Shown one piece after another: positions 9,627 to 24,182 of a stretch of 64,000 nt of DNA (positions are counted from its first letter, which is position 1; each line of letters starts with the position of its first letter). This DNA is from an uncultured Eubacteriales bacterium (GTDB taxonomy: Bacteria; Bacillota; Clostridia; Christensenellales; Aristaeellaceae): contig CADBCY010000005.1 in the NCBI GenBank assembly GCA_902793325.1, positions 1 through 64,000 on the forward strand, in the 5' to 3' direction. Both the position numbers and the translations under genes were made by a program. Below the pieces are notes generated by a model, which was given only the letters and a program-made list of their open reading frames with translations, had not been told where the DNA came from and did no database searches.

Positions 9627-10094
9627 TTATGCCATGGCGCGGCGGCGAAGCAGGATCACCAGCAGCGCGCCGCAGGCGGCGAGGCCCGCGAAGGCGAAGC
9701 CCACGGGCATGGAGCTGTCGCCGGACTGGGGCACCCTGTCGTCCACCACGCGGACGGACACGTCAATGCTCACCAGCATCTTGCCCGCGTCGTCGAAGGC
9801 GTCCATGCGGTACACGCCGGTGTCCTCCACGCTGGCGTTCACCACGTTGTAGACCTTCTGGTTCGCGCCTTCGATGGGTTCGTCGTTGAAGTACCACTGG
9901 TATTTGGAGGGGCTCACGCCATCCACGTTGATCTCGATGCTCAGATCCTCTCCGGCATTCACCACGGCGTTCTGCGTCATGCGGGACACGCGCATCAGCA
10001 CTGTCGTGGAGACCGTGCCTTCGGCCAGTGCCCAGGCCGTGGTCGCCGCCAGCAGCGCCAGCAGCACCGTCAGTATCTTTATAAAGCGCCTCAC
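9627..10094 (-). CDS. Secreted Ig-like domain protein with LPXTG-like C-terminal anchor
   Basis: This 155-residue protein starts at a GTG (10094) eight bases after GGAGG, which gives a clean signal peptide MRRFIKILTVLLALL...ALA. The middle is one immunoglobulin/PKD-like beta-sandwich (SPSKYQWYFNDEPIEGAN... ASVEDTGVYRM), the Y-x-W and D-x-G-x-Y pattern of Ig folds. The C terminus has VPQSGD, a hydrophobic helix and RRRAM, the arrangement of a sortase signal with a variant motif (VPQSG instead of LPXTG). If no sortase uses it, it is simply a C-terminally anchored surface protein. No sortase gene lies in the window. Function is unknown; binding or structural. Confidence 0.72.
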   Translation of the reverse strand: MRRFIKILTVLLALLAATTAWALAEGTVSTTVLMRVSRMTQNAVVNAGEDLSIEINVDGVSPSKYQWYFNDEPIEGANQKVYNVVNASVEDTGVYRMDAFDDAGKMLVSIDVSVRVVDDRVPQSGDSSMPVGFAFAGLAACGALLVILLRRRAMA

Positions 10095-10135
10095 GACGGT
10101 TTCCTCCATTTGTCCATTTCTCATATGTATGCTTC

Positions 10136-10393: not shown

Positions 10394-12325
10394 ATGGGCG
10401 GTTTTCTGTTGCTGGCGGGCTACCTGGCCTGCGGACTGGGCGTGGCGGACGGGCTTCTGCGCGCGCGGAACCGGCTGCTCCGGCTGTGGTTCGGGCTGTG
10501 CGCGGGCCTGGTGCTGATGATGTGGCTCCCCACGCTGTTCGCCTTTGCGATGCGCTTCACGGCGGCGGCGCAGCTTGCGGGCCTGGCGGTCGCGGCGGCG
10601 CTGGCGGCCGGCTGCCAGTGGCGGGCGCACGGCGCGCGGCGCTGCCGCAAATGGTCGAGCCTGCCGCCGTGGCTCGTGCCGGCGCTGCTCGTCCCCTTCG
10701 CGATCCTCGCGGGCTGGCTGCAGTACAGCCACGTGCTGCGCGCGGCGAACGGCGCGCTGTACGTGGGCCAGTCCACCTTCGGCGACCTCTGCCTGCACCT
10801 GGGCATCGCCACGGGGCTGCGCGGCGCGGCCTATCCGCCGGACTACACGCTGCTGCCGGGCACGCTGCTGGGCTACCCCTTCCTGGGGGACGCCATGGTC
10901 ACCTCCATGCTGCTGTTCGGCGCGGACCTGAAGGCCGCCTTCGCGGTCACGGGCACGCTGATGATGGTGCTGGTGGCGCTGGGCTTCATGCTGTTCGCCT
11001 GGGAGGTTACCCGCAGTCGGACGGCGACGGTGCTGTCGTTCCTGCTGCTGTTCCTGAACGGCGGGCTGGGTTTCCTGTACGCGCTGGACCGCTTCTGGAA
11101 GGATCCCTCCGCCTTCCGGGCCATCTTCACCGGCTTCTACGCCACGCCCACCAACCAGCCCGCGCTGAACCTGCGCTGGGTGAACGTCATCTGCGACATG
11201 ATGGTGCCCCAGCGCACGCTGCTGGCGGGCTGGATGGCCCTGCTGCCCGCGCTGTGGCTGCTGGTGACGGCGGCACGCGGGGAGAACCGGGATTGGTTCG
11301 CGCTGCTGGGCGTGTGGGCGGGCTGCCTGCCCATGATCCACACCCACTCCTTCCTGGCCCTGGGCCTGGCCAGCGCCGGCGCCATGGCCTGGTCGCTCGC
11401 GCACGCGCCGCGGGCCAGGCGTCCGGCGCTCCTGCACGGCTTCCTCCTCTACGGCGGCATCGCCGTGCTGCTGGCCGCACCGCAGCTGCTCGCCTGGTCG
11501 GTGCCGCAGACGGTACGGGGCGGCTCGCTGCGGCTTCGCTTCAACTGGGTGAACAACCGGGGCAACGGGCGGCTGATCGACGGATACTGCTGGTTCTGGA
11601 TCAAGAACGTCGGCCCCGTCTGGCTCCTGATGATCCCCGCGGCGCTGCAGGGCAGGCAGGACCGGAGGGACCCCCGGCGCATGCTGGCCTGCGGCGCGCT
11701 GGCGATCTACGCGGTGGCGGAGTGCATCCAGTTCCAGCCCAACGAATACGACAACAACAAGCTGTTCTACGTGGCCTTCATGCTGATGCTGCCCGCGGTG
11801 GGCATGTACCTGGAGGCCCTGTGGCGCAAGCTGTCCGGGCTGCGGGGCCGGGCGCTGCTGGCGACGGCGTTCCTGCTGGTCTGCTTCCTCTCCGGCGCGC
11901 TGACCATCGGCCGCGAGGTGATCTCGAGCTACCGGCTGTTCTCCCCCCAGGAGGTGGCGGCGGCGCGGTTCATCGACGAAAACACCCCCGCGGACGCCGT
12001 GGTGCTGACCGGCGACCAGCACAACAACGCCGCCGCGGCGCTGGCGGGACGGCACATCGTATGCGGCTCAGCCAGCTATCTCTTCTACCACGGCGTGGAC
12101 TACAACCGCCAGCGGCGGAACGAGCGCGACATGCTGGAGCGCCCCGGCGAGAGCGCCGCGCTGTTTGAGGCCTACGGCGTCGACTACGTCTACATCTCCA
12201 GCCACGAGCGCGCCGCGTTCGCCGTGGACGAGGACTGGTTCCGCGAACACTGTGCGCTGGTGTTCCAGAGCTTCGACGTGTCGCTGTACCGGTACGGGGA
12301 CGCCGCCGAGCGCGGCCTCCCTTAA
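10394..12325 (+). CDS. Large polytopic membrane protein, GT-C glycosyltransferase-like
   Basis: This 643-residue protein has about 12 membrane helices, then a soluble C-terminal part of about 130 residues (EVAAARFIDENTPADAVVLTGDQHNN...). Large loops after the first helices (GQSTFGDLCLHLGIATGLRG) and the QFQPNEYDNNKLFY segment resemble GT-C-fold mannosyl/oligosaccharyl transferases and DUF2298-like proteins that use lipid-linked sugars. A canonical D-x-D or D-E pair after helix 1 is not obvious, so the enzyme activity is only suggested. ATG at 10394 follows GGAGG. It has its own promoter and is followed by an independently promoted lipoprotein gene. Confidence 0.6.
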   Translation: MGGFLLLAGYLACGLGVADGLLRARNRLLRLWFGLCAGLVLMMWLPTLFAFAMRFTAAAQLAGLAVAAALAAGCQWRAHGARRCRKWSSLPPWLVPALLVPFAILAGWLQYSHVLRAANGALYVGQSTFGDLCLHLGIATGLRGAAYPPDYTLLPGTLLGYPFLGDAMVTSMLLFGADLKAAFAVTGTLMMVLVALGFMLFAWEVTRSRTATVLSFLLLFLNGGLGFLYALDRFWKDPSAFRAIFTGFYATPTNQPALNLRWVNVICDMMVPQRTLLAGWMALLPALWLLVTAARGENRDWFALLGVWAGCLPMIHTHSFLALGLASAGAMAWSLAHAPRARRPALLHGFLLYGGIAVLLAAPQLLAWSVPQTVRGGSLRLRFNWVNNRGNGRLIDGYCWFWIKNVGPVWLLMIPAALQGRQDRRDPRRMLACGALAIYAVAECIQFQPNEYDNNKLFYVAFMLMLPAVGMYLEALWRKLSGLRGRALLATAFLLVCFLSGALTIGREVISSYRLFSPQEVAAARFIDENTPADAVVLTGDQHNNAAAALAGRHIVCGSASYLFYHGVDYNRQRRNERDMLERPGESAALFEAYGVDYVYISSHERAAFAVDEDWFREHCALVFQSFDVSLYRYGDAAERGLP

Positions 12326-12519: not shown

Positions 12520-14490
12520 ATGCGCAAATGGAAAACCCGCGGGCTGGCCGCCCTGGCGGCGTGCGCGTGCCTGACGCTGACGGGCTGCACCGCGGTGGTG
12601 GACGAGAGCGTGCTGAACACGCAGGCCGACTACTCCGTGGACATCAACATGCCCTACGCCACGGCGACGCCCCTGCCCGACCACCTGAACGTGCCCGACC
12701 CCATCGTCGTGGACGCCGAGGGCAAGGTGTCCGTCAACGACGTCACCGCCATCGAGGGCGACTTCCAGTCCCAGCAGGCCCGGCAGGCCGAGTACCAGAG
12801 CCTGACGCTGGGCAGCACCGGCGCCGAGGTGCAGGCGCTCCAGGCGCGGCTGGAGGCGCTGGGCTATTTCAGCGGCGAGGTCAGCGGCGTGTACGACGCC
12901 GCCACCGAGGAAGCCGTCAAGCGCTTCGAGCGCACCTACGGCACCATGCAGACCGGCGTGGCGACCTCCAAGCTGCAACTGAAGCTCTTCGCCGCGGGCG
13001 CGCCCGCCTACGGCTCCGAGGAATACGAGAACGCCGTCGTGGCGCAGTACTCGGTGCTGCGCGCCGGGAACGTGGGCAGCTCCGTCTACGCGCTGCAGCG
13101 CCGGCTCAAGGAGCTGGGCTATCCCGTGGGCGAGCTGAACGGCGTGTTCAACGACCAGACGGCCCAGGCGGTCGCGCTGTTCTACACCGCCTACGGCCTG
13201 GCCTCCAGCCAGGTGGCGAGCGTGTCCATGCAGCAGAAGCTGTACGCCGAGGACGCCATCGCCTTCGACCCCAACACCGTCATGCCGCACGCGCTGGACC
13301 AGGCCGAGACCGCGGACCTGCCCGCCGGCGAGGACAGCGAGGCCCTGCCCGCGGAGATGCTGGACAACACGCCCACGCCCGAGCCGCAGAGCGAGGAGGA
13401 CGCCTTCGCCGCGCTGGTGGACGCGACGCCCACGCCCCGGGTGGAGGAATCCGTCGGCCTTGGACCGGGCAGCATCGGCCCGCTGGTGGAGGAGATCCAG
13501 AAGCGGCTCATCGAGCTGGGCTACATGGAGGAGGACAGCGCCACCGGCGTGTACGACATCCTCACCCGCGAGGCCGTGGACCGCTTCCTGCTGATGAACG
13601 GCGAGAGCAGCGAGGGCGGCGTGCTGACGCGCGAGCAGCAGGAACTGATCCTGGGCGAGCCGATCTCCGACATCCAGGCCCAGACGGAGTTGCTGACCAG
13701 CCTGGATTACGGCGACAGCGGCGCGGCGGTGATCGTCGTGCAGAACCGCCTCATCGAGCTGGGCTACGCCGTGGGCACCGCCGACGGCAAGTACGGCAGC
13801 TCCACCATCGAGTCGGTGCGCGCCTTCCAGCAGATCAACGACCTGAACGCCGACGGCCGCGCCGACGCGGAGACCCTCAACCGCCTGTACAGCGTGGACG
13901 CCATCAGCTACGAAGAGGGCCGGGAGAAGCTGGAGCGGCTGGCGGCGGAGACCACCCCCGTGCCGGACGTGAACGAGTTCGACGAGCGCGTGTTCTACAA
14001 CCTACACTACGGCTCCGTGGGCAACGCCGTCCAGAAGCTGCAGCAGCGGCTGAACCGGCTGGGCTACCTGGGCAAGGGCGGCATCACCAGCAACTACGAC
14101 GAGAACACCGTGACCGCGGTGAAGAAGTACCAGAAGGCCATCGGCGTGCCCCAGACCGGCGACGCCACCGCGTCGTTCCAGCTCTACCTCTACAGCGACG
14201 CCGCGCCGAACAAGAACTACCGCCTGCACAGCTCCACCCAGGACTACGAGACCCTGAGCGTGGGCAGCTCCGGCGAAGCGGTGGAGCGCCTGCAGCAGCG
14301 GCTGGCGGAGTGCGGCATGCTGTCCGCCGACGACCTGGGCGACGACATCGGGCTCTACAACGAGGCCACCTACCAGGCCGTGGTGCGCGCGCAGGTCAAG
14401 ATGGGCTACAGCGTGGCCGACGGCGAGGCCAGCATCGAGTTCCAGGCGTTCCTCTACTCCCGCTACGGCGCATACCTGAGCACGAAATAA
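12520..14490 (+). CDS. Lipoprotein with six peptidoglycan-binding (PG_binding_1) repeats
   Basis: This 656-residue protein begins at ATG 12520 after GGAGG; the signal peptide ends in a lipobox LTGC with the lipid-bearing Cys at 23. Six repeats of the three-helix peptidoglycan-binding fold follow, recognised by G-S-x-G-x-x-V-x-x-L-Q-x-R-L-x-x-L-G-Y...: starts near 110, 185, 345, 430, 535 and 620. Proline/threonine/glutamate-rich linkers separate repeats 2 and 3 (TPTPEPQ, TPTPRV). No hydrolase domain is present, so it is a binding or scaffold protein linking membrane and wall. Some repeats look diverged (the last has a long insert). Confidence 0.85.
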   Translation: MRKWKTRGLAALAACACLTLTGCTAVVDESVLNTQADYSVDINMPYATATPLPDHLNVPDPIVVDAEGKVSVNDVTAIEGDFQSQQARQAEYQSLTLGSTGAEVQALQARLEALGYFSGEVSGVYDAATEEAVKRFERTYGTMQTGVATSKLQLKLFAAGAPAYGSEEYENAVVAQYSVLRAGNVGSSVYALQRRLKELGYPVGELNGVFNDQTAQAVALFYTAYGLASSQVASVSMQQKLYAEDAIAFDPNTVMPHALDQAETADLPAGEDSEALPAEMLDNTPTPEPQSEEDAFAALVDATPTPRVEESVGLGPGSIGPLVEEIQKRLIELGYMEEDSATGVYDILTREAVDRFLLMNGESSEGGVLTREQQELILGEPISDIQAQTELLTSLDYGDSGAAVIVVQNRLIELGYAVGTADGKYGSSTIESVRAFQQINDLNADGRADAETLNRLYSVDAISYEEGREKLERLAAETTPVPDVNEFDERVFYNLHYGSVGNAVQKLQQRLNRLGYLGKGGITSNYDENTVTAVKKYQKAIGVPQTGDATASFQLYLYSDAAPNKNYRLHSSTQDYETLSVGSSGEAVERLQQRLAECGMLSADDLGDDIGLYNEATYQAVVRAQVKMGYSVADGEASIEFQAFLYSRYGAYLSTK

Positions 14491-14532
14491 CCTGGCCCGC
14501 CGCACGGCAACGGTGATGTGGCGGACATACTG

Positions 14533-14572
14533 ACGGGACCCCGGTCGACATGAACATCGGCCGGGGTCCCGT
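14533..14572. terminator. Bidirectional terminator between the lipoprotein and the ligase gene
   Basis: acgggaccccgg (14533-14544) and ccggggtcccgt (14561-14572) pair perfectly; a T-rich stretch follows on the plus strand (TTTCGCTGTTTT). It closes both the lipoprotein transcript and the long minus-strand acylation operon. Confidence 0.8.
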
Positions 14573-14595
14573 TTCGCTGTTTTCTCTGCCGGGCG

Positions 14596-16065
14596 TCAAA
14601 GGCCCTTCAGTTCCTTCCGCAGGAGCTTGCCGTTGAAGCTGCGGGGGAGGGCGGCGATCTGCTCGATGGACGCGGGCACCTTGTACGGCTCCAGCCGCTC
14701 CGCAAGGAACGCGCGCAGCGCCGCCGCGTCGAACGCCCGGCCCGCCCGCATCTGGACGAACAGCCGCGGGACGCTGCCCTTGAAGGGGTCGTCCATGGGC
14801 ACGACGCCGCAATCCGCCACGTCCGGGTGCTGCCGGGCGGCGTTCTCGATCTCCTCGGGGGAGACCTTGCTGCCGCCGACGTTGATCACGTCGCCCCGCC
14901 GCCCCAGCAGGATGATGTCGCCGTCGCCGTCCACGTAGGCCTCGTCGCTGGAGTACACCACGCCCTCCGCCAGCACGCGCGCGGTCTCCTCCGCGTCCTG
15001 CCAGTAGCCAACCATGTTCATCCTGCCCGCGCTGGCCAGCAGCCCGGCATGGGTCGCGCTCGAGGCGATGGGCCGCCGGTCGTCGTCCACGATGAAGATG
15101 TCGGCGTTGCAGGTGGGCCTGCCCACGCAGCGGCGCTTGGCGTCCGGGCGGTTGAAGTCGTAGATGGCGATGCAGCCGCTCTCGGTGCTGCCGTAGAAGT
15201 TATAGAGCCGCGTTTCGGGCAGCAGGCGGCAGATCTCCGCCCGGTCCGCGTCCGGCATCGGCGCCGCGCCGAACTGGATGTAGCGCAGCTGCGCGCGGTA
15301 GTCGGCCAGCCTGCCCTTCGACAGCTTCAGCACCGCCGACAGCGCCGCGGGCACCATGTCGATGGCGTTGACGCCGTACTCCTCCATGTTGGCCATGAAC
15401 TTCCTCAGGTTCATGGCGCTGCCCAGCAGCACCGCCGCGCTGCCGTTGACCATGTTGGCGTAGTAGCGCCTGAGGCCGTGGGAGTGGTTCAGGGGCGAGA
15501 GGATCATCTCCACGTTGTCCGGCGCCATGCCCACGCCCCGGATGACGTTCTCCGCCAGCGCGACGTCGTTGTCGTGGGTGAGCACGATGCCCTTCTCCTT
15601 CCCCGTGGTGCCCGTGCTGAACAGGATCTCGCTGACGGCGGTGCGCTCGGGGAGCGCGGCGGCCTCATAGGGCGTCGCGGATGCGGCGCCGGCCTCCACC
15701 TCCGCGAGCGTCCGGCAGAGGGGCGCGTCGCAGCCCTCCGCCCGGGCGGAGATCACCGCGGCGGCGTCCACCCGGCGGGCGAAGGCGGCCACCTTCTCCG
15801 GCGCGCAGTTGCGCTCCACCGGCACGAAGATCGCGCCCAGCAGCTGCAGCGCCAGCTCCAGGGCCAGGTAGTTCACGCTCTGGGACGCCTCGACCACCAC
15901 CCTGTCCCCGGCGGCGACGCCCTCCCCGGCCAGGAACCCGGCGTACCGGCGCACCTTGTCCGCGTATTCGCGGTAGGTCGCGCGGTCGGCGTCGTCCGCG
16001 AGGCACAGCGCCTCCGGCCGGCGCGCGGCGTGGTGGAACACGGCTTCTACGATGGAACGGAACAT
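14596..16065 (-). CDS. AMP-forming acyl/amino-acyl ligase of the Dlt-like operon
   Basis: This 489-residue ANL-superfamily enzyme activates a carboxylic acid with ATP. Visible core motifs: FSTGTTGKEKG (A3, P-loop, 149-159), YNFYGSTESG (A5), the YSSDEA...GRRGDVINVGG region (A7/A8) and the A10 lysine in FNGKLLRKE (K480). The substrate-pocket motif is SPLNHSHGL (190-198), like fatty- or aryl-acid ligases; the Asp that DltA and NRPS domains use to hold an alpha-amino group is not evident. It is the last gene of the operon, 19 bases after the ABC ATPase, and the carrier protein upstream is its probable partner. Acyl-CoA formation is an alternative. Confidence 0.82.
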   Translation of the reverse strand: MFRSIVEAVFHHAARRPEALCLADDADRATYREYADKVRRYAGFLAGEGVAAGDRVVVEASQSVNYLALELALQLLGAIFVPVERNCAPEKVAAFARRVDAAAVISARAEGCDAPLCRTLAEVEAGAASATPYEAAALPERTAVSEILFSTGTTGKEKGIVLTHDNDVALAENVIRGVGMAPDNVEMILSPLNHSHGLRRYYANMVNGSAAVLLGSAMNLRKFMANMEEYGVNAIDMVPAALSAVLKLSKGRLADYRAQLRYIQFGAAPMPDADRAEICRLLPETRLYNFYGSTESGCIAIYDFNRPDAKRRCVGRPTCNADIFIVDDDRRPIASSATHAGLLASAGRMNMVGYWQDAEETARVLAEGVVYSSDEAYVDGDGDIILLGRRGDVINVGGSKVSPEEIENAARQHPDVADCGVVPMDDPFKGSVPRLFVQMRAGRAFDAAALRAFLAERLEPYKVPASIEQIAALPRSFNGKLLRKELKGL

Positions 16066-16084
16066 GGCGGTTCTCCTTCGCGGG

Positions 16085-16843
16085 TCAGACTTCCTGGGTG
16101 GCGTACAGCGCGGCGTGCATGCGGTCCCACAGCGCGCCGTAGCCCGGCGACGAGGGGCTCACGGGCCGCGGGATGGGGTTGCGCAGGTCCATGGCCACGC
16201 GGCCGCCGTGCTGCATCAGCATCAGCCGCGTGCCCAGCACGATGCCCTCCTGGATGTTGTGAGTGATGAATATGATCGTGCACTTCTCCTGCCGGGAGAT
16301 GGCCAGCACCTCCTGCTGGAGCGTGTTGCGGGTGATGGCGTCCAGCGCGGCGAAGGGCTCGTCCATCAGTATGATGGCGGGCTTCAGCGCCAGCGCCTTG
16401 GCGATGGCCACGCGCTGCTTCATGCCGCCGGAGAGCTGGTAGGGGTAGTGCTTCTCAAACCCGCTCATCTTCACCTTCGCCAGCACGTCCGCGGCGATGT
16501 CCGCCAGCTTCCGCCTGTCGCGCACGCCCTGGCACTTCAGCGCGTACTGTATGTTCCGCTCCACGGTGAGCCAGGGGAACAGCTGGTTGAAGTCCTGAAA
16601 GACCATGATCCTGTCGGTGCCGGGGCCGGCGATCTCCCGCCCGTCCACCAGGATGCGCCCCCGGCAACGCTCGAACCCCGCGATGCAGCGCAGCAGCGTG
16701 GTCTTGCCACAGCCGGAGGGACCCAGGATGCACAGGAACTCCCCCTGCTCCACCTCCAGGCTCAGGTTGTCGATGACGGCGTGTTCGCGGCTGTCGTCGT
16801 CGTAGACCTTTGACAGGTTCTCAATCTTCAATAGCGCGGTCAT
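16085..16843 (-). CDS. ABC transporter ATP-binding protein, NitT/TauT type
   Basis: This 252-residue ATPase has Walker A GPSGCGKTT, Q-loop VFQDFNQLFPW, signature LSGGMKQRVAIAKAL, Walker B AIILMDEPF and the switch histidine ITHN, all intact. The FQD-x-x-LFPW Q-loop is characteristic of nitrate/sulfonate/taurine importer ATPases (SsuB/TauB/NrtD group). The ATG at 16843 overlaps the permease stop (ATGA), proving tight coupling. With the permease and the NMT1/THI5-like binding protein it forms a complete importer inside the acyl-transfer operon. Confidence 0.92.
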   Translation of the reverse strand: MTALLKIENLSKVYDDDSREHAVIDNLSLEVEQGEFLCILGPSGCGKTTLLRCIAGFERCRGRILVDGREIAGPGTDRIMVFQDFNQLFPWLTVERNIQYALKCQGVRDRRKLADIAADVLAKVKMSGFEKHYPYQLSGGMKQRVAIAKALALKPAIILMDEPFAALDAITRNTLQQEVLAISRQEKCTIIFITHNIQEGIVLGTRLMLMQHGGRVAMDLRNPIPRPVSPSSPGYGALWDRMHAALYATQEV

Positions 16844-17640
16844 GACTTGCGCATCCCCCATTTGCCGACGGTGTGCTTCTCGATCGGGTTGAGTATGCCG
16901 TACTGCACGATCAGCCCGATGATGATGATGACCACCAGCGTGGCGTACATTTCGGCGTTGTTCATGTTGGTGCGCATCTGGTTGATGAACAGCCCGATGC
17001 CCGGCGCCGAGGCGATGCCGAAGATCATCTCCGCGCTGATCAGCCCGCGCCACGCGCGCGCCCAGCCCACCTTCAGCCCGGACAGGATGTAGGACATGGC
17101 GGCGGGGATGTAGATGCCGAACAGCAGCCCCGCGCGGCTGAGGCCGATGTTCATGCCCGCCTCCACGTAGAGCCGCGGCACGGCCCGGAAGCCGTCGATC
17201 AGGTTGCGGGACATGGGCCACACCACCGAGTGCACCACCAGGAACACGATCACCCCCGGCTTCACGCCGAAGATGATGATGACCACCGGCAGCAGCGCCA
17301 CGCCGGGCAGCAGGTCCGCCACGGCCACCAGCAGGCTGTAGAGGTTGTGGAACGTGCGGCTGACCATGGAGAGGCCGGAGCAGAGGAACGCCATGCCGAT
17401 GCCGATGCCCATGCCCGCCAGCAGCAGCTTCATGGAGTTCGCCAGGTACACCCACAGCGTCACCCCGGCGTAGCCCTTCGCGAAGTTCTTGACGAAGGCC
17501 GCGCCGACGGCCTCCAGCGTCGGAAAGATGATCTCCGAGCGCGGGCCGAACACGTGGGCCCGCGCGGCGATCTCCCAGGCCGCCAGCAGCACGGCCACGA
17601 ACGCGACCTTCTGGAGCAGGCTGCGCACACTGTCCTTCAT
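16840..17640 (-). CDS. ABC transporter permease, NitT/TauT (SsuC-like) type
   Basis: This 266-residue membrane protein has six helices and the EAA-loop of BPD permeases (EAGMNIGLSRAGLLFGIYIPAAMSYI, about 166-192), with AAMSYILSGLKVGWARAWRGLISAEM typical of the SsuC/TauC family. It supplies the transmembrane pore, probably as a homodimer. It lies 60 bases downstream of the binding-protein gene and overlaps the ATPase by four bases. Confidence 0.9.
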   Translation of the reverse strand: MKDSVRSLLQKVAFVAVLLAAWEIAARAHVFGPRSEIIFPTLEAVGAAFVKNFAKGYAGVTLWVYLANSMKLLLAGMGIGIGMAFLCSGLSMVSRTFHNLYSLLVAVADLLPGVALLPVVIIIFGVKPGVIVFLVVHSVVWPMSRNLIDGFRAVPRLYVEAGMNIGLSRAGLLFGIYIPAAMSYILSGLKVGWARAWRGLISAEMIFGIASAPGIGLFINQMRTNMNNAEMYATLVVIIIIGLIVQYGILNPIEKHTVGKWGMRKS

Positions 17641-17700
17641 CGTAAAACGCTCCTCCCCGCAATCGTGTGGCGAAGAAACCGCCCCCGCAGGGGAACGGGA

Positions 17701-18654
17701 TCAGTCGCCCCGGACGTTGTCAAACACCAGGTCGGCGTAACTGCCCGGGTCCGCCTCGATGAAGGCGTTCTCGTACATGAACCGCGCCATGGCCTCCACG
17801 CCGCCGGTGGCGGTGTCGTAGTTGCCCAGCCGCAGCCAGGCGGCCTCGTCCTCCACGCTGTTGCCGTCGTACTGGCTGGTCAGCGCCGCGGTGGCCTCCA
17901 CGTGCCCGTTCACGTAGTCGATGGCGTCGGCGATGCCCGCGCACAGGGCGTCGTACAGCGGGCGGTTCTCGTCGTACAGCGCGATCGCGGCCACGCCCAC
18001 GATGAAGGAGTTCTCCTTCGGCCAGGCTTCCCGCAGCGCCTCGATCTCATGCAGGCCCTCGGTCTCCCGCTCGCGGTAGATGTAGGGGCTGGTGGTCAGG
18101 TGCAGCGGCACGCTGCCGGCCAGCAGGGCGCTCATGCCGTCGGGATGCTTCATGGCGACCAGGCTGGCGTCCAGCGCGTGGGGGTCGAAGCCGTTGTCCG
18201 CGAGGCTCTTGGCCAGTATGATGTGCTGGATGGAGCCGATGTTCACCAGCGCGATCTGGCTGTAGCTGTCGATGATGTCGTCGTAGGTCCGGAGGGACTC
18301 GTCGTTGGTCATCAGGCCGTGCTCCTGGCCGGAGAGGTTGGTGAAGATCTTGTAGCTGACGTTCTTGGAGATGCCGGTGATGGCGGGCCCGACGCCCATG
18401 AAGCCCACGTCCACGGAGCCGGACATGACGCCGGTGTTGATGTCAGCGCCGGAGCTCATCTGCACCCATTCGATCTCCAGCGCGCCGTCGTAGGCCTGTT
18501 CGATGAACTTCTCGGTCTGGGCCACCACCAGCGGCGCGTAGGCCAGGCCGTACTGGTAGGCGATGGTCAGGCGGGCGGCGTCCTCCGCGGACGCGGCGGA
18601 CGCGCAGGCGAGCAGCAGCAGCGCCGCCAGCAGCATGGCGAGCATCTTCTTCAT
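17701..18654 (-). CDS. ABC substrate-binding protein, NMT1/THI5 (SsuA/TauA-like)
   Basis: This 317-residue exported protein begins MKKMLAMLLAALLLLACASAASAED. The leader could be cut at ASA or, less canonically, lipidated at the Cys in LLAC. The mature part follows the nitrate/sulfonate/thiamine-precursor binding fold: LTIAYQYGLAYAPLVVAQ, then SSGADINTGVMSGSVDVGFMGVGPAI, the loop that closes over the ligand. Ligands of this family include sulfonates, nitrate and pyrimidines, so the substrate is open; operon context suggests a small molecule used for surface acylation. ATG 18654 follows GGAGG. It lies 46 bases after the carrier protein gene. Confidence 0.88.
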   Translation of the reverse strand: MKKMLAMLLAALLLLACASAASAEDAARLTIAYQYGLAYAPLVVAQTEKFIEQAYDGALEIEWVQMSSGADINTGVMSGSVDVGFMGVGPAITGISKNVSYKIFTNLSGQEHGLMTNDESLRTYDDIIDSYSQIALVNIGSIQHIILAKSLADNGFDPHALDASLVAMKHPDGMSALLAGSVPLHLTTSPYIYRERETEGLHEIEALREAWPKENSFIVGVAAIALYDENRPLYDALCAGIADAIDYVNGHVEATAALTSQYDGNSVEDEAAWLRLGNYDTATGGVEAMARFMYENAFIEADPGSYADLVFDNVRGD

Positions 18655-18700
18655 GGCGTATACCTCCTCGGGGTCGCTCAAAGGTCGGGGGGAAAACGGG

Positions 18701-18922
18701 TTACTGCAGCTCCTCCACCATGGCCCACATGGCCTCGACGGATTCGAAGTTCTCCGGCTGGATGTACTCCATGGTGACGGAGATGTCAAACATGTCCTCC
18801 AGGTTGGCGATGATGCTCACCACGGCCAGGGAATCCAGCAGGCCGCGGGTCATGAGCTGCTTTTCGCGTTCGAAGTCGATCATGGGGAAGTTCTGCTTCA
18901 GCATTTCGAGGATCTGTTCCAT
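18701..18922 (-). CDS. Acyl carrier protein (DltC-like)
   Basis: This 73-residue acidic helical protein carries the phosphopantetheine attachment motif GLLDSLAVVSI with Ser31, and the DltC-like pattern of helix 2 and 3 (LEDMFDISVTMEYIQPENFESVEAM). It would carry the acyl group activated by the ligase at 14596 and present it to the MBOAT protein encoded 18 bases upstream. It is too specialised in context to be the fatty acid synthase ACP. The strong ribosome site GGAGCG lies before ATG 18922. Confidence 0.9.
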   Translation of the reverse strand: MEQILEMLKQNFPMIDFEREKQLMTRGLLDSLAVVSIIANLEDMFDISVTMEYIQPENFESVEAMWAMVEELQ

Positions 18923-18940
18923 GGTTGTTCGCTCCTTTGT

Positions 18941-20524
18941 TTAAAACTGTTCGTAAATGAAGCCGCCTTTGCCGTACCACGGGCCGTAGACGCCGAAGTA
19001 CAATACGAAGAACAGGCAGGCGTAGATCAGCGCCCACCGGAGCGCGATGTTGCGGCGCGAGAGGGCCTCGCGCACCCGCGTGCGTTCCTGGGCGATGTCC
19101 ACGATGAGCAGGATCAGCATGGACACCGCGGCGATGATGGCGTTCGGGGTGTTCATGCCGATGTCAAACCCGGGGCGCAGCAGTTGCGCCAGCGAGATGC
19201 GGGGGGTCCGCACGGCGGCGAAGATCCCGAAGGCGGCGCGCAGGTCGTCGGCGCGGAAGAACACCCGGCCCACGCAGCACAGTACGAAGGTGCGCAGCAT
19301 CTGCCACAGCCGCCAGGGAAGGCGGTCGGGATCGATCCGCAGCCGGCGGTTCGCGGCGGCGAAGGCGGGCTCCAGCAGGCGGCTGCCGATCAGCAGCATG
19401 GCGTGAAAGACGCCCCAGGCCACGAACTTCCAGGCCGCGCCGTGCCAGATGCCGGTGATCATCCACACCACGAAGATGGGAAAGCACGCCGCGAACAGCT
19501 CCGCCGACTGCGGTTTGCCCTTCGCCTTGCAGGCCTTCTTGACCTTCCGCACGAGGTTCGAGGCGGACACGGGGAAGTACACGTAGTCCTTGAACCACTC
19601 CTGCAGCGAGATGTGCCAGCGCCGCCAGAACTCGCCCATGGTGCGGGAAAAGTAGGGGTGGTTGAAGTTCTTGCGCAGCCGGATGCCCAGCATCTCCGAA
19701 ACGCCGGTCACGATGTCGATGCAGCCGGAGAAGTCCGCGTAGATCTGGATGGAGTACGCCGCCACGGCGATCGCCAGCAGCGCGCCGCCGCTGGCGCTCC
19801 AGTGCCCGAACACGGCGTCCACGAACATCCCCAGCCGGTCGGCGATCACCAGCTTCTTGAAAAAGCCCCACAGCGCGAGCTGCGCGCCGAAGGTGAAGGT
19901 CTGGTAGTCGAACGACACGCCCGCCCGGAGCTGGTCGCGGAATTCGTTGAAGCGGTCGATGGGGCCCTGCACCACGTGCGGGAAGTAGGAGAGGTATACG
20001 GCGTAGAGCAGGAAGCTCTCCTCCGCCCGGTAGCGCTTCCAGTACACGTCCAGCACGTAGCTGAGCGCCATGAAGGTATAGAACGATATGCCCACGGGCA
20101 GGATCATGGCGAACATCGGCGTTTCGGGCAGCCCGAAGCAGCGCAGCAGCGCGTTCAGGTTCTCCAGCAGGAAGCCCGTGTACTTGCACGCGACCAGCAG
20201 CGCGATGGGCACGGCCATGCCGACGCCGAGCGCCCGCTTCGCCCGCGCCTTGGCCGCGGCGCGCAGCCGCTTCTTTTCGGCGGCGTCCGAGCAGGCGGCG
20301 ACGGCCTCTTCCGAGGCCCGGTACACGCGGTCGATCCAACGCGCGGCGAAGAACGTGGCGACCATCGTCGCCAGCAGGAAGGGCAGGTAGCGCAGCCCCG
20401 CCACGGCGTAGAACGCCAGGTTCGCCAGCGCCAGCACCGCCAGCTGCCGCTTGCGCCCCGCCAGGTAGTACACGGCCGTCACGACGCCCGCGAAGGCCAG
20501 GAATTGTAACGATTGGTAACTCAT
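18941..20524 (-). CDS. MBOAT-family O-acyltransferase (DltB/AlgI-like)
   Basis: This 527-residue protein has about 11 membrane segments. The MBOAT signature is intact: LPVGISFYTFMALSYVLDVYW, YADFSGCIDI, FWRRWHISLQEWFKDYVYFP with H304, and the catalytic H361 in TGIWHGAAWKF. Family members move acyl groups across the membrane onto extracellular polymers: D-alanyl from carrier protein (DltB) or acetyl (AlgI, PatA). The adjacent ACP and ligase match the DltB logic. It starts 15 bases after the SGNH gene and is followed 18 bases later by the ACP. Confidence 0.93.
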   Translation of the reverse strand: MSYQSLQFLAFAGVVTAVYYLAGRKRQLAVLALANLAFYAVAGLRYLPFLLATMVATFFAARWIDRVYRASEEAVAACSDAAEKKRLRAAAKARAKRALGVGMAVPIALLVACKYTGFLLENLNALLRCFGLPETPMFAMILPVGISFYTFMALSYVLDVYWKRYRAEESFLLYAVYLSYFPHVVQGPIDRFNEFRDQLRAGVSFDYQTFTFGAQLALWGFFKKLVIADRLGMFVDAVFGHWSASGGALLAIAVAAYSIQIYADFSGCIDIVTGVSEMLGIRLRKNFNHPYFSRTMGEFWRRWHISLQEWFKDYVYFPVSASNLVRKVKKACKAKGKPQSAELFAACFPIFVVWMITGIWHGAAWKFVAWGVFHAMLLIGSRLLEPAFAAANRRLRIDPDRLPWRLWQMLRTFVLCCVGRVFFRADDLRAAFGIFAAVRTPRISLAQLLRPGFDIGMNTPNAIIAAVSMLILLIVDIAQERTRVREALSRRNIALRWALIYACLFFVLYFGVYGPWYGKGGFIYEQF

Positions 20525-20539
20525 GCCCCGCTCCTCGTG

Positions 20540-21889
20540 CTATGTGCGAACGCCGACGCCCCTGTAATCGAAGTTCCCGTACCGCGCGCCGCCCCCGGCA
20601 ATGCGCATCGGCACCACGGTGTAGGCGTAGCGGCGCCCCGGCTCGCCGGTTTCGTCCGTCCAGGACGTCCCTTCGGTCTCCGCGATCCGCCGCCAGGCGC
20701 CCTTGCTCCCGTCCCTGCGGTAGACGGCGTAGCGCTCCGCGCCTTCGGACGCCTCCCAGCAGACCGTCACGGCCGCCCCTTCCGCGGCCTTCTCCGCCGA
20801 CAGCCCCGCGGGCACGGGCAGAGAAGCGTCCCGCCCGGCGGCGTCCAGCTCGATGTCCAGGATGCAGGGTGCGAGCTTCTTCGCGTACTTTTCCCAGCCC
20901 CTGTCCCAACTGGCGTAGGCCGCGTCGCCGCGCCGGTCCCGCAGGCCGAAGCGCTCGATGAGGTGCTCGGTGATGAAGTTGGTGACCTTGATCGAGCCGT
21001 GGATGTTGGTGTGCTTCTTGTTGTAGAAGTCCTGCGTCAGGTCCAGGCCGACCTCGCCCGTGCGGTCCGTGAGGTACAGCACCTCGTAGCCGCGCCCGCG
21101 GATCAGGTCGCACACGGTGTTGATCCTGCCCAGCGCGTGTTCGTTGCGCTCGGCGCGCGGCACCGACACGAACAGCACGCGGATGCCCTCCGCGTCGCAG
21201 TAGTCCAGCAGCTTCCGCGTGGACTCCGCCAGCGCGTCGGGCACGCCCGAGCGCTGCTCCGTCAGGATGTACTTGGCGGAGATGTCGCTGATCTTGTTCA
21301 GGTAGCGGTCGTACTTGCTCGTGGCCTTCAGGCCGTCCAGCTTCAGCGGCCCGCTGCGCAGCAGGCTGAACCAGTACTCGCGCGTCCGCACCCACGGAAA
21401 CCGGAATTCCAGCCGCCTTATCCTGCTGTACCCCTTCAGGTCGGAGAGGTAGTTGATGAGCGCTTCCTTGTTGGCCGAGTCCGGCATGTAGTTGACGGTC
21501 CGGTGGATCGCGGCGCCGCTGAGGTCGTCCGCCTCCACGGAGTTGACGTTCACCACGAACACCGCGTCGGGCTGCGTCTTGCGCACGTCTCTCATGATGT
21601 ACTCCGTGGCGCAGAACGGCAACGAGCCGCACGAGAAGGGGTAGATCGCCAGGCCGTAATTGTGCCAGGCCACCAGGGGGTTCCAGAAGGCGTAGCAGTT
21701 GCTCGAGCCGATGTACACGCCGTGCAGCGTGTTCTCCGGCTCCCGGTAGAACCCGCCGATGGACTGGTAGACCCTGTTTTCCGGGTGATGGGAGCCGAAC
21801 CTCGCCATCGCGTAGAACAGCACCAGGAAGATGCAGAGGAAGACCGCCGCCCGGATGAGGTGTTTCTTTCTTGCTTCCATAACAGACAT
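20540..21889 (-). CDS. Membrane-anchored SGNH/DltD-like protein with C-terminal fibronectin-III-like domain
   Basis: This 449-residue protein has one N-terminal membrane anchor (about 11-30) and an extracellular SGNH-hydrolase-like domain: block I GVYIGSSNCYAFWNP with the Ser at 62-63, and the late block QDFYNKKHTNIHGS with D287 and H293. This is the topology of DltD, AlgJ/AlgX and PatB, which complete polymer acylation beside an MBOAT protein. Residues about 365-445 form an added Fn3-like beta-sandwich (GAERYAVYRRDGSKGAW), unusual for DltD. It is the first gene of the operon. No strong ribosome site precedes ATG 21889; ATG 21880 is an alternative start. Confidence 0.78.
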   Translation of the reverse strand: MSVMEARKKHLIRAAVFLCIFLVLFYAMARFGSHHPENRVYQSIGGFYREPENTLHGVYIGSSNCYAFWNPLVAWHNYGLAIYPFSCGSLPFCATEYIMRDVRKTQPDAVFVVNVNSVEADDLSGAAIHRTVNYMPDSANKEALINYLSDLKGYSRIRRLEFRFPWVRTREYWFSLLRSGPLKLDGLKATSKYDRYLNKISDISAKYILTEQRSGVPDALAESTRKLLDYCDAEGIRVLFVSVPRAERNEHALGRINTVCDLIRGRGYEVLYLTDRTGEVGLDLTQDFYNKKHTNIHGSIKVTNFITEHLIERFGLRDRRGDAAYASWDRGWEKYAKKLAPCILDIELDAAGRDASLPVPAGLSAEKAAEGAAVTVCWEASEGAERYAVYRRDGSKGAWRRIAETEGTSWTDETGEPGRRYAYTVVPMRIAGGGARYGNFDYRGVGVRT

Positions 21890-22152
21890 TCAAACGCCGT
21901 CGGCCCGCGCCCATGGGCGCTGCCCGTCCTTTACCGCCAACATACTTTTTTCATATTAGCATCATATTCTTAAGCGAATCTGAAACAGCGCTGTCCGAGT
22001 GTTAATCCTGTTTGTGCTTTGGCGCTTTTTTGTGTCGAAAGCGAAGCAATTCATTCAGATTTCTTTAAGCAAACGCCGATATAATGTATAATCAGAGGTC
22101 GTGTGGGGCGCGGGCATCTCCCCCGCCCCGCGCGAATACACCGAGGTGGACT
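21890..22152. other. Divergent control region between the acylation operon and its two-component system
   Basis: This 263-base gap is clearly AT-richer than its surroundings and contains no ORF I trust. It must hold the promoter of the minus-strand operon (no clear -35/-10 pair found; CTTAAGAATATGAT-like sequence near 21970 is the best candidate) and the plus-strand -10 boxes at 22080-22092. Confidence 0.55.
22080..22092 (+). promoter_or_regulatory. Tandem -10 boxes of the response-regulator gene
   Basis: TATAAT occurs twice seven bases apart (22080-22085 and 22087-22092), but only poor -35 matches lie upstream (TTTAAG at 22064-22069). This suggests activator-dependent or weak constitutive transcription. 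Confidence 0.5.
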
Positions 22153-22821
22153 ATGCGCGTATTGATCGTGGAAGACGACCGGGACATGAACAGCGTCGTA
22201 TCCCGGCATCTCATGGCCAGCGGCTTCGCCGTGGACGCCTGCTTTGACGCGGACGCGGCGCGGGCCATGATCCAGAACAACTGCTACGACGTGATCGTCA
22301 TGGACATCATGCTGCCCGGCGGCGACGGCCTGGAGATCGTGCGCTGGATGCGGCAGTCCGGCATCAACGCCGCGACGCTGATCCTGACGGCGAAGGACGC
22401 CATCACCGACCGCATCACCGGCCTGGACGCCGGGGCGGACGACTACATGACCAAGCCCTTCTCGCTGGACGAGCTGTCCGCCCGCATCCGGGCGCTCTCC
22501 CGCCGGCTGACGGACAACCGGGACAACGTCTACCAGATCGCGGACCTGACGCTGGACATCCAGCGCCGGATCGCCCGGCGCGCCGGGAAGGAGATCGAGC
22601 TGAGCATGCGCGAGTTCGCCATACTCGAATACCTCGTGCGCAACGCCGGCATCGCGCTCTCCCGCGAGCAGATCGAGCACTACATCTGGAATTACGACTA
22701 CATCGGCAATTCCAACATCGTCGAGGTCTACATCAGCGCGCTGCGCAAGAAGATCGACGCCGGGCACGACCACAAGCTGATCCGCACGATACGTTCCGTC
22801 GGCTACACCATCAAGGAGTGA
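22153..22821 (+). CDS. OmpR/PhoB-family response regulator
   Basis: This 222-residue regulator has a receiver domain (1-120) with acidic pocket EDD (7-9), phospho-acceptor D51 in VIVMDIMLPGG and the switch lysine in DDYMTKPFSLDEL, then a winged helix DNA-binding domain (about 128-222; VEVYISALRKKID is the recognition region). Start 22153 is preceded by GAGGTGG; an ATG at 22084 would fall on the promoter. It is followed directly by the sensor kinase. The pair is divergent from the surface acylation operon, which I infer is a target. Confidence 0.94.
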   Translation: MRVLIVEDDRDMNSVVSRHLMASGFAVDACFDADAARAMIQNNCYDVIVMDIMLPGGDGLEIVRWMRQSGINAATLILTAKDAITDRITGLDAGADDYMTKPFSLDELSARIRALSRRLTDNRDNVYQIADLTLDIQRRIARRAGKEIELSMREFAILEYLVRNAGIALSREQIEHYIWNYDYIGNSNIVEVYISALRKKIDAGHDHKLIRTIRSVGYTIKE

Positions 22822-22826
22822 TCCGC

Positions 22827-24182
22827 ATGAAGGGAATCCGCCGGCGCTCCATCAAGTTCCGCATCATGGTGTGGTACGCCGTGTTCGTGGTGCTGATCGT
22901 GGCGCTGTTCCTGGGCATGCTGCTCGCGGCGCAGGACATCTCCTCCGAGGACTTCTACTCCGACAAACTCCGGGAGGCGCTGCAGGAATCGGACGAGGAC
23001 ATCGAGATCCTGCAGGACGCGCTGGAGGCCGCGCAGGCCCGGGATTCCGGCGTCCGGCTGACGGTCGTGGCGCAGGACGGAACGCTGCTGGCCGGCGACC
23101 GAACCTTCCACTGCAAGCTGAAGGAGGACTCCATGCGCATCCGCGCCGGCCGCGAGGACAACTTCTGGTTCGTCATGGACCGGCGCATCGAGCTGCGCGA
23201 CGGCGGAGCCGTCTGGCTGCGGGGCTACATCTCCTCGGAGGTCTCCGAGCGCTACTACGAAACCGTGCTGCACATCCTGCTGTACGCCGTCCCCGTGCTG
23301 CTGCTGGTGGTCCTCGGCGGGGGCTACCTGCTGACGAAGCGCGCCTTCCGCCCGCTGGACGACATCATCAACGCCGCGCGGGACATCTCCGCCCGCACGG
23401 ACCTGCGGCAGCGCTTTCGCACCGGCGCGCAGCAGGACGAGGTCGGCCGCCTGGCCGACGCGCTGGACGGCATGCTCGACCGGCTGGAGCGCTCCATGGA
23501 GGACGAGCGCACCTTCATCTCCGACGCCTCGCACGAGCTGCGCACGCCCATCAGCGTCATCCGCGCCCAGAGCGAGTTCGCGCTGAAGCCCGGCCGCACG
23601 CCCGCGGAGAAGGACGCGGCGCTGGAGATCATCCAGGCCCGCAGCATCCGGGCGGGCCAGATGCTCTCGCAGATGCTGCTGCTCTCCCGGATGGACTACG
23701 AGCGCCTGCCGCTGAACCCGGAGCGCGTCAACCTGTCGGAGCTGCTGAGGCAGGTCGCCCAGGAGATGGAGCTGCGCGCCGGCGAGCGGGACATCGCGCT
23801 GCTGTGCGACGTGGAGGAGGGCGTCTGCTGCCGCTGCGACGAGCTGCTGATGATGCGCGCGGTTTCGAACCTGCTGGAGAACGCCATACAGTACGGCAGG
23901 CCGGGCGGGCACATCTGGCTCGCGCTGCGCGGGGGCGAGGAGCGCCTGACGCTGACCGTCCGCGACAACGGCATCGGCATCGCCGAGGCGGACCAGCCCA
24001 AGATCTGGCAGCGCTTCTATCGCGTCAACAAATCGGGCGGCTCGGGCTACGGCCTGGGGCTGTCCATCGTGCAATGGATCGTCCGCGCCCACGGCGGCGA
24101 CATCTCCGTGACCAGCGCCCCCGGGGTGGGGAGCACCTTCGCGCTCGAGCTCCCCGTCGACCCCGGCAGCGCGCGGCAATAA
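22827..24182 (+). CDS. Two-component sensor histidine kinase
   Basis: This 451-residue kinase has membrane helix 1 (about 14-36), an extracytoplasmic sensor of about 110 residues without a recognised fold, helix 2 (about 150-172), a HAMP linker, the dimerisation box SDASHELRTPISVI with phospho-acceptor H236, N box LLENAIQYG, G1 DNGIGIAE, F box WQRFYRV and G2 GYGLGLSIVQW. It starts at 22827, where AAGGAG (overlapping the regulator's end) sits eight bases upstream. It should phosphorylate the regulator just upstream; the mid-sized sensor domain suggests an envelope signal. Confidence 0.93.
   Translation: MKGIRRRSIKFRIMVWYAVFVVLIVALFLGMLLAAQDISSEDFYSDKLREALQESDEDIEILQDALEAAQARDSGVRLTVVAQDGTLLAGDRTFHCKLKEDSMRIRAGREDNFWFVMDRRIELRDGGAVWLRGYISSEVSERYYETVLHILLYAVPVLLLVVLGGGYLLTKRAFRPLDDIINAARDISARTDLRQRFRTGAQQDEVGRLADALDGMLDRLERSMEDERTFISDASHELRTPISVIRAQSEFALKPGRTPAEKDAALEIIQARSIRAGQMLSQMLLLSRMDYERLPLNPERVNLSELLRQVAQEMELRAGERDIALLCDVEEGVCCRCDELLMMRAVSNLLENAIQYGRPGGHIWLALRGGEERLTLTVRDNGIGIAEADQPKIWQRFYRVNKSGGSGYGLGLSIVQWIVRAHGGDISVTSAPGVGSTFALELPVDPGSARQ

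Follow-up and report, generated by a model that had tools for sequence, protein, structure and literature searches.

The window analysed here, a stretch of 64,000 nucleotides from an uncultured Eubacteriales bacterium (contig CADBCY010000005.1, positions 1 to 64,000), carries on its minus strand, at positions 14596-21889, an operon that combines the components of a Dlt-like envelope acylation system with a complete ATP-binding cassette (ABC) importer. In the order of transcription, its seven genes encode a DltD-like protein, a membrane-bound O-acyltransferase (MBOAT), an acyl carrier protein (ACP), a substrate-binding protein, a permease, an ATPase and an AMP-forming ligase. Every frame is open and intact in our calls, and the spacing between successive genes is 15, 18, 46, 60, -4 and 19 bases, in agreement with an earlier sequence-only reading of this DNA, which had described seven same-strand genes with overlaps or gaps of at most 60 bases. 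Judged by eye, a GGAG-type site lies shortly 5' of 5/7 start codons. The Pfam matches in the operon are to MBOAT, NMT1_2, BPD_transp_1, ABC_tran and AMP-binding with AMP-binding_C, which confirms the five identities given earlier as MBOAT, NMT1-like binding protein, permease, ATPase and AMP-ligase. The positions of these genes, of two shorter elements within them and of two flanking features are collected in Table 1.

Table 1. Features of the operon and its immediate flanks (positions in the window; ORF, open reading frame; AF2, AlphaFold2 model; His, histidine)
Feature	Position	Strand	Basis
DltD-like SGNH acyltransferase, N-terminal helix and C-terminal Fn3 domain	20540..21889	-	ORF, AF2, Foldseek
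MBOAT acyltransferase, DltB-related	18941..20524	-	PF03062; TIGR04091 below cut-off; conserved His
C-terminal acyl-shuttle hexapeptide FIYEQF of the MBOAT	18944..18961	-	alignment of 41 MBOATs
Acyl carrier protein, DltC/AmcB-like, presumed phosphopantetheine site Ser31	18701..18922	-	NCBIfam below cut-off
Substrate-binding protein of SsuA/TauA (NitT/TauT) kind	17701..18654	-	PF13379, TIGR01728, AF2, PDB folds
ABC importer permease	16840..17640	-	PF00528
ABC importer ATPase	16085..16843	-	PF00005
AMP-forming acyl ligase (putative acyl-ACP ligase)	14596..16065	-	PF00501 and PF13193
Ligase pocket Arg199 codon, aligned with GrsA position 239	15469..15471	-	profile alignment to 6mfy
Strong 17-pair hairpin between convergent gene ends	14532..14573	.	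T-run on the + strand side
Two-component system (response regulator, histidine kinase), divergent, possible regulator	22153..24182	+	Pfam

The ACP and the DltD-like protein have no Pfam match at 1e-3, and the latter has none in NCBIfam either, so that its identity as an SGNH/DltD protein with an Fn3 domain is confirmed by fold only. Its AF2 model (predicted local distance difference test, pLDDT, 92.6) matches the DltD structures 3bma and 6pfx at E ~1e-4, together with many Fn3 domains, in Foldseek. Residues S63, D287 and H293 are invariant in 19/19 aligned proteins, an alignment restricted to members scoring at least 150 bits and leaving out weaker DltD-like proteins, and could act as a triad; by fold and triad-like residues the protein corresponds to the SGNH component of the Dlt system, with an additional Fn3 domain. 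The MBOAT matches PF03062 with 64.5 bits and the DltB model TIGR04091 with 154.5 bits, below the cut-off of 375. When it is aligned with 40 others scoring at least 380 bits, taken from loci of related genomes, H304 is present in 41/41 and H361 in 40/41 sequences, and the C-terminal FIYEQF of the window protein corresponds to an exact FXYXXF in 35/41 and to F-x-Y-x-x-F/Y in 41/41. The ACP is identified weakly, as DltC/AmcB-like, by matches to DltC and AmcB models that score below their cut-offs (NF058660, 34.8 bits; NF003464, 33.5 bits against 68); the carrier serine, Ser31 in the window, is conserved in 40/40 aligned proteins. Three of the closest operons, in genomes G003, G004 and G005 (loci L032, L033 and L034), contain tandem MBOAT and DltD-like copies, and in one MBOAT copy (L055:8107-9681) a Leu replaces the conserved His361.

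FXYXXF has been described as an acyl-shuttle motif, and in the parts of that source available to us two arrangements of it are distinguished: Dlt has the motif on DltX, a protein of its own, and a carrier protein as donor, whereas in PatA-like MBOATs the motif is fused to the enzyme and the donor is acyl-CoA (CoA, coenzyme A), in pathways without a carrier protein (PMC12148441). In this operon, the donor is of Dlt type and the shuttle of PatA type. Its MBOAT resembles PatA, with a built-in shuttle, more closely than DltB, and the likeness to PatA/PatB and other MBOAT-SGNH pairs extends to the SGNH partner and the conserved His, although acyl-CoA serves there without a carrier, as far as the source available to us goes, while an ACP and a ligase are encoded here (PMC12148441). 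With DltABCD(X) the operon shares an AMP-ligase, a small carrier protein, an MBOAT and a DltD-like SGNH protein, and presumably also the delivery of the acyl group by ACP rather than CoA. It differs in its importer genes, in the Fn3 domain of its SGNH protein and in the shuttle fused to the MBOAT instead of a separate DltX, for which no aimed search was made.

The ligase sets a further distance from Dlt. It matches PF00501 with 183.7 bits and PF13193 with 56.7 bits, and its best NCBIfam models, all below cut-off, are those of acyl-CoA ligases. A profile alignment to the gramicidin synthetase A domain (6mfy) places H194, S195, H196 and R199 at positions 234, 235, 236 and 239, in what we take to be the GrsA numbering. 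Among 48 aligned ligases (the first 50 listed, less L165, whose frame was wrong, and L170), position 239 is Arg in 48/48, position 236 is His in 39/48, a second Arg occupies position 330 in 16/48, and position 235 is Ser in 43/48 and Ala in 5/48, and not the Asp that binds the amino group in DltA. Arg at position 239 occurs in 78/79 family rows scoring at least 330 bits and in 0/27 lower-scoring AMP-ligase rows, several of which carry a DltA-like 'FD' motif; this contrast opposes a family defined by its own profile to the rest, and marks a family hallmark without proving a substrate. It drew on 133 matches, 101 at or above 330 bits and 32 below, from which 22 and 5 gapped or duplicate rows were dropped; some genes may still be counted more than once, since by another measure, before the gap filter, 76 and 30 were distinct. 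Because this Arg is conserved at the pocket wall, the aligned residues suggest a distal anion on the ligase substrate, and we consider it likely that the substituent is anionic. A true Dlt operon was rejected, as both the ligase pocket and the position of the shuttle differ. What stands of the DltABCD logic proposed earlier is the set of ligase, carrier, MBOAT and DltD-like protein; the ligase is not DltA-like, and the shuttle is part of the MBOAT.

The same pocket bears on the idea of an amino-acid substituent, beta-alanine or D-alanine for instance, which would make the system a form of Dlt with a scavenged amino acid. The ACP is DltC-like, TauA-type binding proteins may, to our knowledge, bind beta-amino compounds, and the importer of L075, L094 and L103 is followed by PanB/PanC-type genes, whose products consume beta-alanine (by Pfam, with one member tested per cluster). 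We nevertheless regard an amino acid as very improbable, given the Arg in the pocket, the replacement of the amino-group Asp of the DltA motif FD by Ser or Ala in all aligned ligases, and the restriction of the PanBC adjacency to 3/74 loci; for beta-alanine in particular, the pocket Arg weakens the case despite these genes. In the three loci, a DUF2520/Rossmann gene accompanies PanB and PanC of pantothenate synthesis, perhaps as a supply of phosphopantetheine, perhaps by chance.

Some ligases of relatives have unusual architectures. In L171:7819-10263, L172:6881-9409 and L173:8660-11158, a single frame fuses a LysR regulator (HTH_1 and LysR_substrate in Pfam) to the AMP-ligase, an odd combination; in these genomes the importer lies elsewhere (L102, L104 and L107), with no gene of the LysR cluster beside it. 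At L217:7708-9819 the AMP-ligase has a nitroreductase domain as its fusion partner, and ACP, MBOAT and genes of teichoic-acid type lie in the same cluster. Within the window's own genus, L037, L038, L040, L041 and L042 carry a different cluster, without such an importer, which comprises another kind of AMP-ligase, a protein of ~215 residues, an ACP, an MBOAT and a weakly DltD-like protein.

The three genes between ACP and ligase encode a complete NitT/TauT-type importer, as had been read from the sequence; Pfam, the fold of the binding protein and the gene order bear this out. The binding protein matches PF13379, and its score with TIGR01728 (SsuA_fam) is 62 bits, against a cut-off of 163.5. 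TauA and SsuA chains, from five entries, take the first seven places among the PDB matches to its AF2 model (pLDDT 93.4); these include complexes with 2-aminoethylphosphonate, MES and MOPS, two of the seven having MES or MOPS bound. The next matches are a Staphylococcus binding protein, Thi5, CmpA/NrtA-type proteins and thiamin binders. The permease matches PF00528 with 54.1 bits, its best NCBIfam models being SaoP, TauC and SsuC, and the ATPase matches PF00005 with 113.1 bits, its best being SaoA, PhnT2 and the taurine ATPase, all below cut-off. An SsuA/TauA-fold binding protein, a permease and an ATPase are thus all present, and the set resembles SsuABC/TauABC in kind and in fold, with the difference that its scores are far under the SsuA/TauA cut-offs and that it is tied to acylation genes. 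No desulfonation gene was noticed beside the window importer, although no search was aimed at one, and we know of no defined ligand for this importer.

Whether the importer genes travel with the acylation genes was addressed in related genomes, with ORF choices of our own; many of these records are metagenome-assembled genomes, so that absences weigh little. An MBOAT search covered 100 relatives, of which 20 neighbourhoods were examined. The complete run of DltD, MBOAT, ACP, binding protein, permease, ATPase and ligase recurs in G003, G004, G005 and G037, with binding proteins 74-78% identical; the first three have additional MBOAT and DltD copies upstream. G027 and G049 have the same kinds of component in other orders, with binding proteins 41-45% identical, and no DltD was seen in the examined stretch of G049.

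A wider set of 74 loci was then collected by contig search with the binding-protein alignment alone, and seven profiles were applied within 9 kb of each. A ligase of the same family (at least 480 bits) was found in 47/74 loci, an MBOAT in 38/74 (37 at 380 bits or more), an ACP in 39/74, a DltD-like gene in 32/74, and ligase, ACP and MBOAT jointly in 35/74. The ligase query alignment includes one importer-less member (L036), which raises the scores of importer-less clusters. Of the 40 loci flanked on each side by 6 kb or more, 26 have the ligase, 21 the MBOAT, 23 the ACP, 20 all three and 12 none. Gene order and orientation differ widely, in several loci the ligase and the importer are even in opposite orientation and hence not always in one operon, and the association is kept nonetheless, across the window's family and records titled Lachnospiraceae, Anaerovorax, Emergencia, Solobacterium and Peptostreptococcaceae. 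The cultured strains Hominisplanchenecus faecis CLA-AA-H246 (L101) and Anaerovorax odorimutans SL.3.17 (L087) are among those carrying the entire cluster. Chance clustering was rejected on this ground, the association being conserved through shuffled gene orders. Conservation of the ABC genes with MBOAT, ACP and ligase, the main test to which the earlier proposal was exposed, is therefore observed, and since the linkage recurs across loci in shuffled orders, the importer is no passenger.

The association also holds at the level of genomes. In a sample of 299 from the family of G342, a record titled Lachnospiraceae and picked because the importer is present, the binding protein (1e-80) occurs in 11 genomes and the ligase (1e-100) in 22; the ligase is found in 10/11 genomes with the binding protein, the exception being G603, and in 12/288 without (Fisher p = 5e-12). 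Within the window's family (300 genomes, the window's included, 18 with the ligase), it is found in 7/7 genomes with a strong binding-protein match against 11/293, on the assumption that the binding-protein and ligase samples are identical sets; the former count becomes 7/9 if two weaker matches at E = 1e-65 are included (G041 and G124, both ligase-less). The importer predicts the ligase and not the converse, as 12 and 11 genomes in the two samples have the ligase without a strong importer match. In the 24 loci lacking ligase, MBOAT and ACP, a genome-wide ligase match at 1e-60 exists for 16 (five of them partial) and none for eight. The binding proteins of three of these eight, L122-L124, are the most remote of all, at 29-35% identity.

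Clusters without this importer show what may replace it. In the window's family, 9 of the 11 such ligase genomes were examined (G252 and G321 were left out): a DASS/CitMHS-type symporter lies in or beside 4/9 clusters (L161, L162, L165 and L168, the last with ligase and symporter and no MBOAT in the stretch examined), and a sodium:solute symporter in one (L164). For genomes with the importer unlinked to the ligase, 12 of 16 ligase neighbourhoods were examined (L169-L180; G340, G355, G356 and G361 were left out); three have a DASS-type gene (L170, L178 and L180), and no MBOAT was seen in the examined stretch of 5/12 (L171-L174 and L177). L112 has both a DASS carrier and the ABC importer. Since other types of small-anion carrier occupy the same place, these arrangements argue that the importer feeds the ligase.

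An importer serving sulfur or carbon nutrition, and tied to the acylation genes by shared regulation or hitch-hiking only, would also give some of these patterns. Indeed, a LysR gene is present in 25/74 loci and immediately precedes the binding protein in 19/74 (two members confirmed by Pfam), so that in many relatives the importer stands behind such a gene, sometimes opposite to the ligase; an O-acetylhomoserine (OAH) sulfhydrylase gene lies near L112 and L171; and the 12/40 well-covered loci without any of the three enzyme genes fit this idea. Such a role is improbable in view of the genome-level co-occurrence even where the genes are unlinked, the DASS-type (4/9) and sodium:solute (1/9) carriers found instead in importer-less clusters, the LysR-ligase fusions of L171, L172 and L173, and the fact that the most remote binding proteins belong to genomes without a ligase match at 1e-60. 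Near some importer-only loci, an aminotransferase, a cation exchanger and a PucR regulator were seen and formed no coherent pathway. The shared pathway proposed in the sequence-only reading is supported by both the comparative and the structural evidence: importer and ligase very probably act in one pathway, and, as judged from gene content and linkage, the importer appears dedicated to the ACP-dependent MBOAT/SGNH acylation system.

A link to sulfonates came from HpfG, the sulfopropanediol dehydratase. In L176, ligase, ACP, DltD and MBOAT stand end to end with HpfH, HpfG (1286 bits against a cut-off of 1000), LysR and an aldehyde dehydrogenase, and an NMT1-type binding protein and an ATPase precede the HpfH-HpfG group. 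HpfG above its cut-off was found in 12/50 importer genomes, which we selected from those carrying the 74 loci, and in 8/299 of the family sample (G539 belonging to both); against the importer-free part of that sample, the figures are 12/50 and 7/288 (Fisher p = 7e-7), and 8/34 (p = 3e-5) if the 34 Lachnospiraceae-type titles among the 50 are taken alone. The control enzyme CutC, compared with a sample of 270 genomes rather than 299, shows no clear enrichment, with 2/50 against 4/270 above cut-off (p = 0.24) and 4/50 against 13/270 at 1e-200. The HpfG clusters of L213 and L215 contain full-length aldehyde dehydrogenases that belong to the family of the L176 and L169 enzymes (47-65% identical), and that of L214 a fragment of the same family; the L169 enzyme, 65% identical to that of L213, adjoins DltD-MBOAT-ACP-ligase. 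In L207, L208, L209 and L216, HpfGH lies beside a separate set of permease, ATPase and binding protein.

In the parts of the source at hand, the HpfG product of Enterococcus gilvus is converted to 3-sulfopropionate via a CoA thioester, the dehydrogenase is CoA-acylating, and TauE is named as the probable exporter of 3-sulfopropionate (PMC11489063). The window itself encodes a TauE/SafE-type membrane carrier at 35410-36156 (PF01925, 139 bits), ~13.5 kb from the operon. The HpfG/HpfX/HpfYZ pathway, which leads from dihydroxypropanesulfonate to 3-sulfopropionate, would yield the proposed substituent, and a 3-sulfopropionyl thioester is known from E. gilvus; it differs in that the thioester is an energy-yielding CoA intermediate, 3-sulfopropionate is released, and no transfer to a polymer is described in those parts of the source (PMC11489063). 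HpfGH adjoins the ligase cluster in L176, and 3-sulfopropionate or a similar acid is our leading candidate for the substituent.

Several points count against this candidate, besides the self-defined family behind the Arg contrast. The HpfG-importer link is not significant within the even sample (1/11 against 7/288, p = 0.26), the 50 importer genomes are not all from the comparison family, and they leave out the window's genome and its closest operon-bearing relatives (L052-L055 and L113). HpfG adjoins the ligase cluster in one locus only, L176, and in L213 a distance of ~9 kb separates it from a second ligase, a divergent one in which the pocket His is lost. The SsuA_fam score of the binding protein is far under the cut-off, which other binding proteins in HpfG clusters (L208 and L216) do exceed, and fold neighbours at ~3.5 Å root-mean-square deviation do not fix a ligand. 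No carrier is in view in 4/9 importer-less clusters (L036, L163, L166 and L167), no acceptor-polymer gene was identified by Pfam among the window neighbours examined, and DASS carriers transport plain dicarboxylates, classically C4 ones, as well. This last point belongs to an alternative in which the machine is the same and the acyl group is an ordinary dicarboxylate, such as succinate or malonate: the pocket Arg would suit any distal anion, and DASS-family carriers are found in several clusters. We consider it unlikely, as the nearest folds of the binding protein are sulfonate binders, HpfG occurs in a larger share of the importer genomes than of the family sample, and we know of no NitT/TauT importer for succinate. 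That the substituent is sulfonated remains a call slightly short of even.

Two clusters of relatives bear on the acceptor. The second cluster of G342 (L217) has ligase, ACP and MBOAT amid a CDP-glycerol glycerophosphotransferase, an IspD-type cytidylyltransferase and epimerases, and that of G022 (L036) adjoins an ABC-2 exporter and a GlfT2-like transferase, which point to teichoic-acid-like or galactan-like polymers in these two genomes. These neighbours, with the DltD-like fold and a shuttle motif typical of polymer acylation, also speak against the MBOAT/SGNH pair acylating a lipid or a secreted small molecule instead of a wall or capsule polymer, which we hold to be highly unlikely even though the acceptor is deduced from context and the SGNH protein might use its Fn3 domain to bind a ligand that is no polymer. 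The acceptor is quite probably an envelope polymer.

From these elements the following route can be proposed. A small anionic carboxylate would be taken up via the SsuABC-like importer and converted by the ligase to an acyl-AMP, from which the acyl group would be loaded on the ACP. The MBOAT would transfer it to the Tyr of its own FIYEQF tail on the extracellular side of the membrane, and the DltD-like SGNH protein could accept it on Ser63 and hand it on to a hydroxyl group of an envelope glycopolymer that the cell exports. Most likely, this acyl group would be a short sulfonated carboxylate of the 3-sulfopropionate or sulfoacetate class, bringing a negative charge where D-alanylation brings a positive one. 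Linkage, motifs and folds support, in outline, the earlier proposal that an imported carboxylate may be activated, loaded on ACP and moved by MBOAT and SGNH proteins to an extracellular polymer. Taken as a whole, the reading that an envelope polymer is acylated, via the ACP, with a scavenged carboxylate that is anionic and probably sulfonated is evenly poised; its reaction steps, substrate and acceptor are inferred from the genes present and their linkage, from motifs and predicted folds, and from the alignment of the pocket residues. 3-Sulfopropionate and sulfoacetate are breakdown products of plant sulfolipid and taurine. The more specific proposal, that gut and rumen Clostridia capture the free acids and esterify them to a surface polymer via a dedicated carrier protein, in a hybrid of Dlt and PatAB, is tentative, and we lean somewhat against it.

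We class the system as a variant of MBOAT-SGNH envelope acylation, and the recurrence of importer and attachment enzymes in many gut Clostridia points to an undescribed decoration of the cell surface. Among the open PubMed Central matches listed, nothing was found on sulfopropionyl or sulfoacetyl polymers, nor on MBOATs paired with SsuA or dlt operons that include an ABC transporter in Lachnospiraceae, which does not establish absence from print. In the envelope acylations known to us, the acyl group, for example D-alanine or acetyl, originates within the cell, and we know diet- and bile-derived sulfonates only as sources of carbon and of sulfite or H2S. A substituent imported by the cell itself would couple surface charge to the contents of the gut; if it is sulfonated, these sulfonates would gain a structural use, and enzymatic sulfo-acylation, if true, would be an anionic counterpart of D-alanylation fed by scavenging. 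Furthermore, the combination of ACP and fused shuttle allows one to test how an MBOAT selects either a carrier protein or CoA as its donor, and ligase, ACP and binding protein are soluble and easily assayed.

Around the operon, the hairpin separates its end from a convergent plus-strand gene (12520-14490) with peptidoglycan-binding domains. The idea that the ABC genes have a promoter of their own was rejected: a scan of 14380-22350 for a sigma-70-like consensus gave no minus-strand site whatever, a weak test in a GC-rich genome. Neither Rfam nor tRNA scans gave a match in the window. Beyond the convergent gene, 10394-12325 encodes a 643-residue protein that looks membrane-like by eye and has no Pfam match, and 9627-10124 a small protein with one immunoglobulin-like domain (I-set in Pfam) and, by eye, hydrophobic ends. 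On the other side, the divergent two-component layout of the window recurs in L035 (3951-5862, by Pfam) of G037, from another genus, and 14/74 loci share a gene cluster that, to judge by its L035 counterparts, is a two-component pair in L054.

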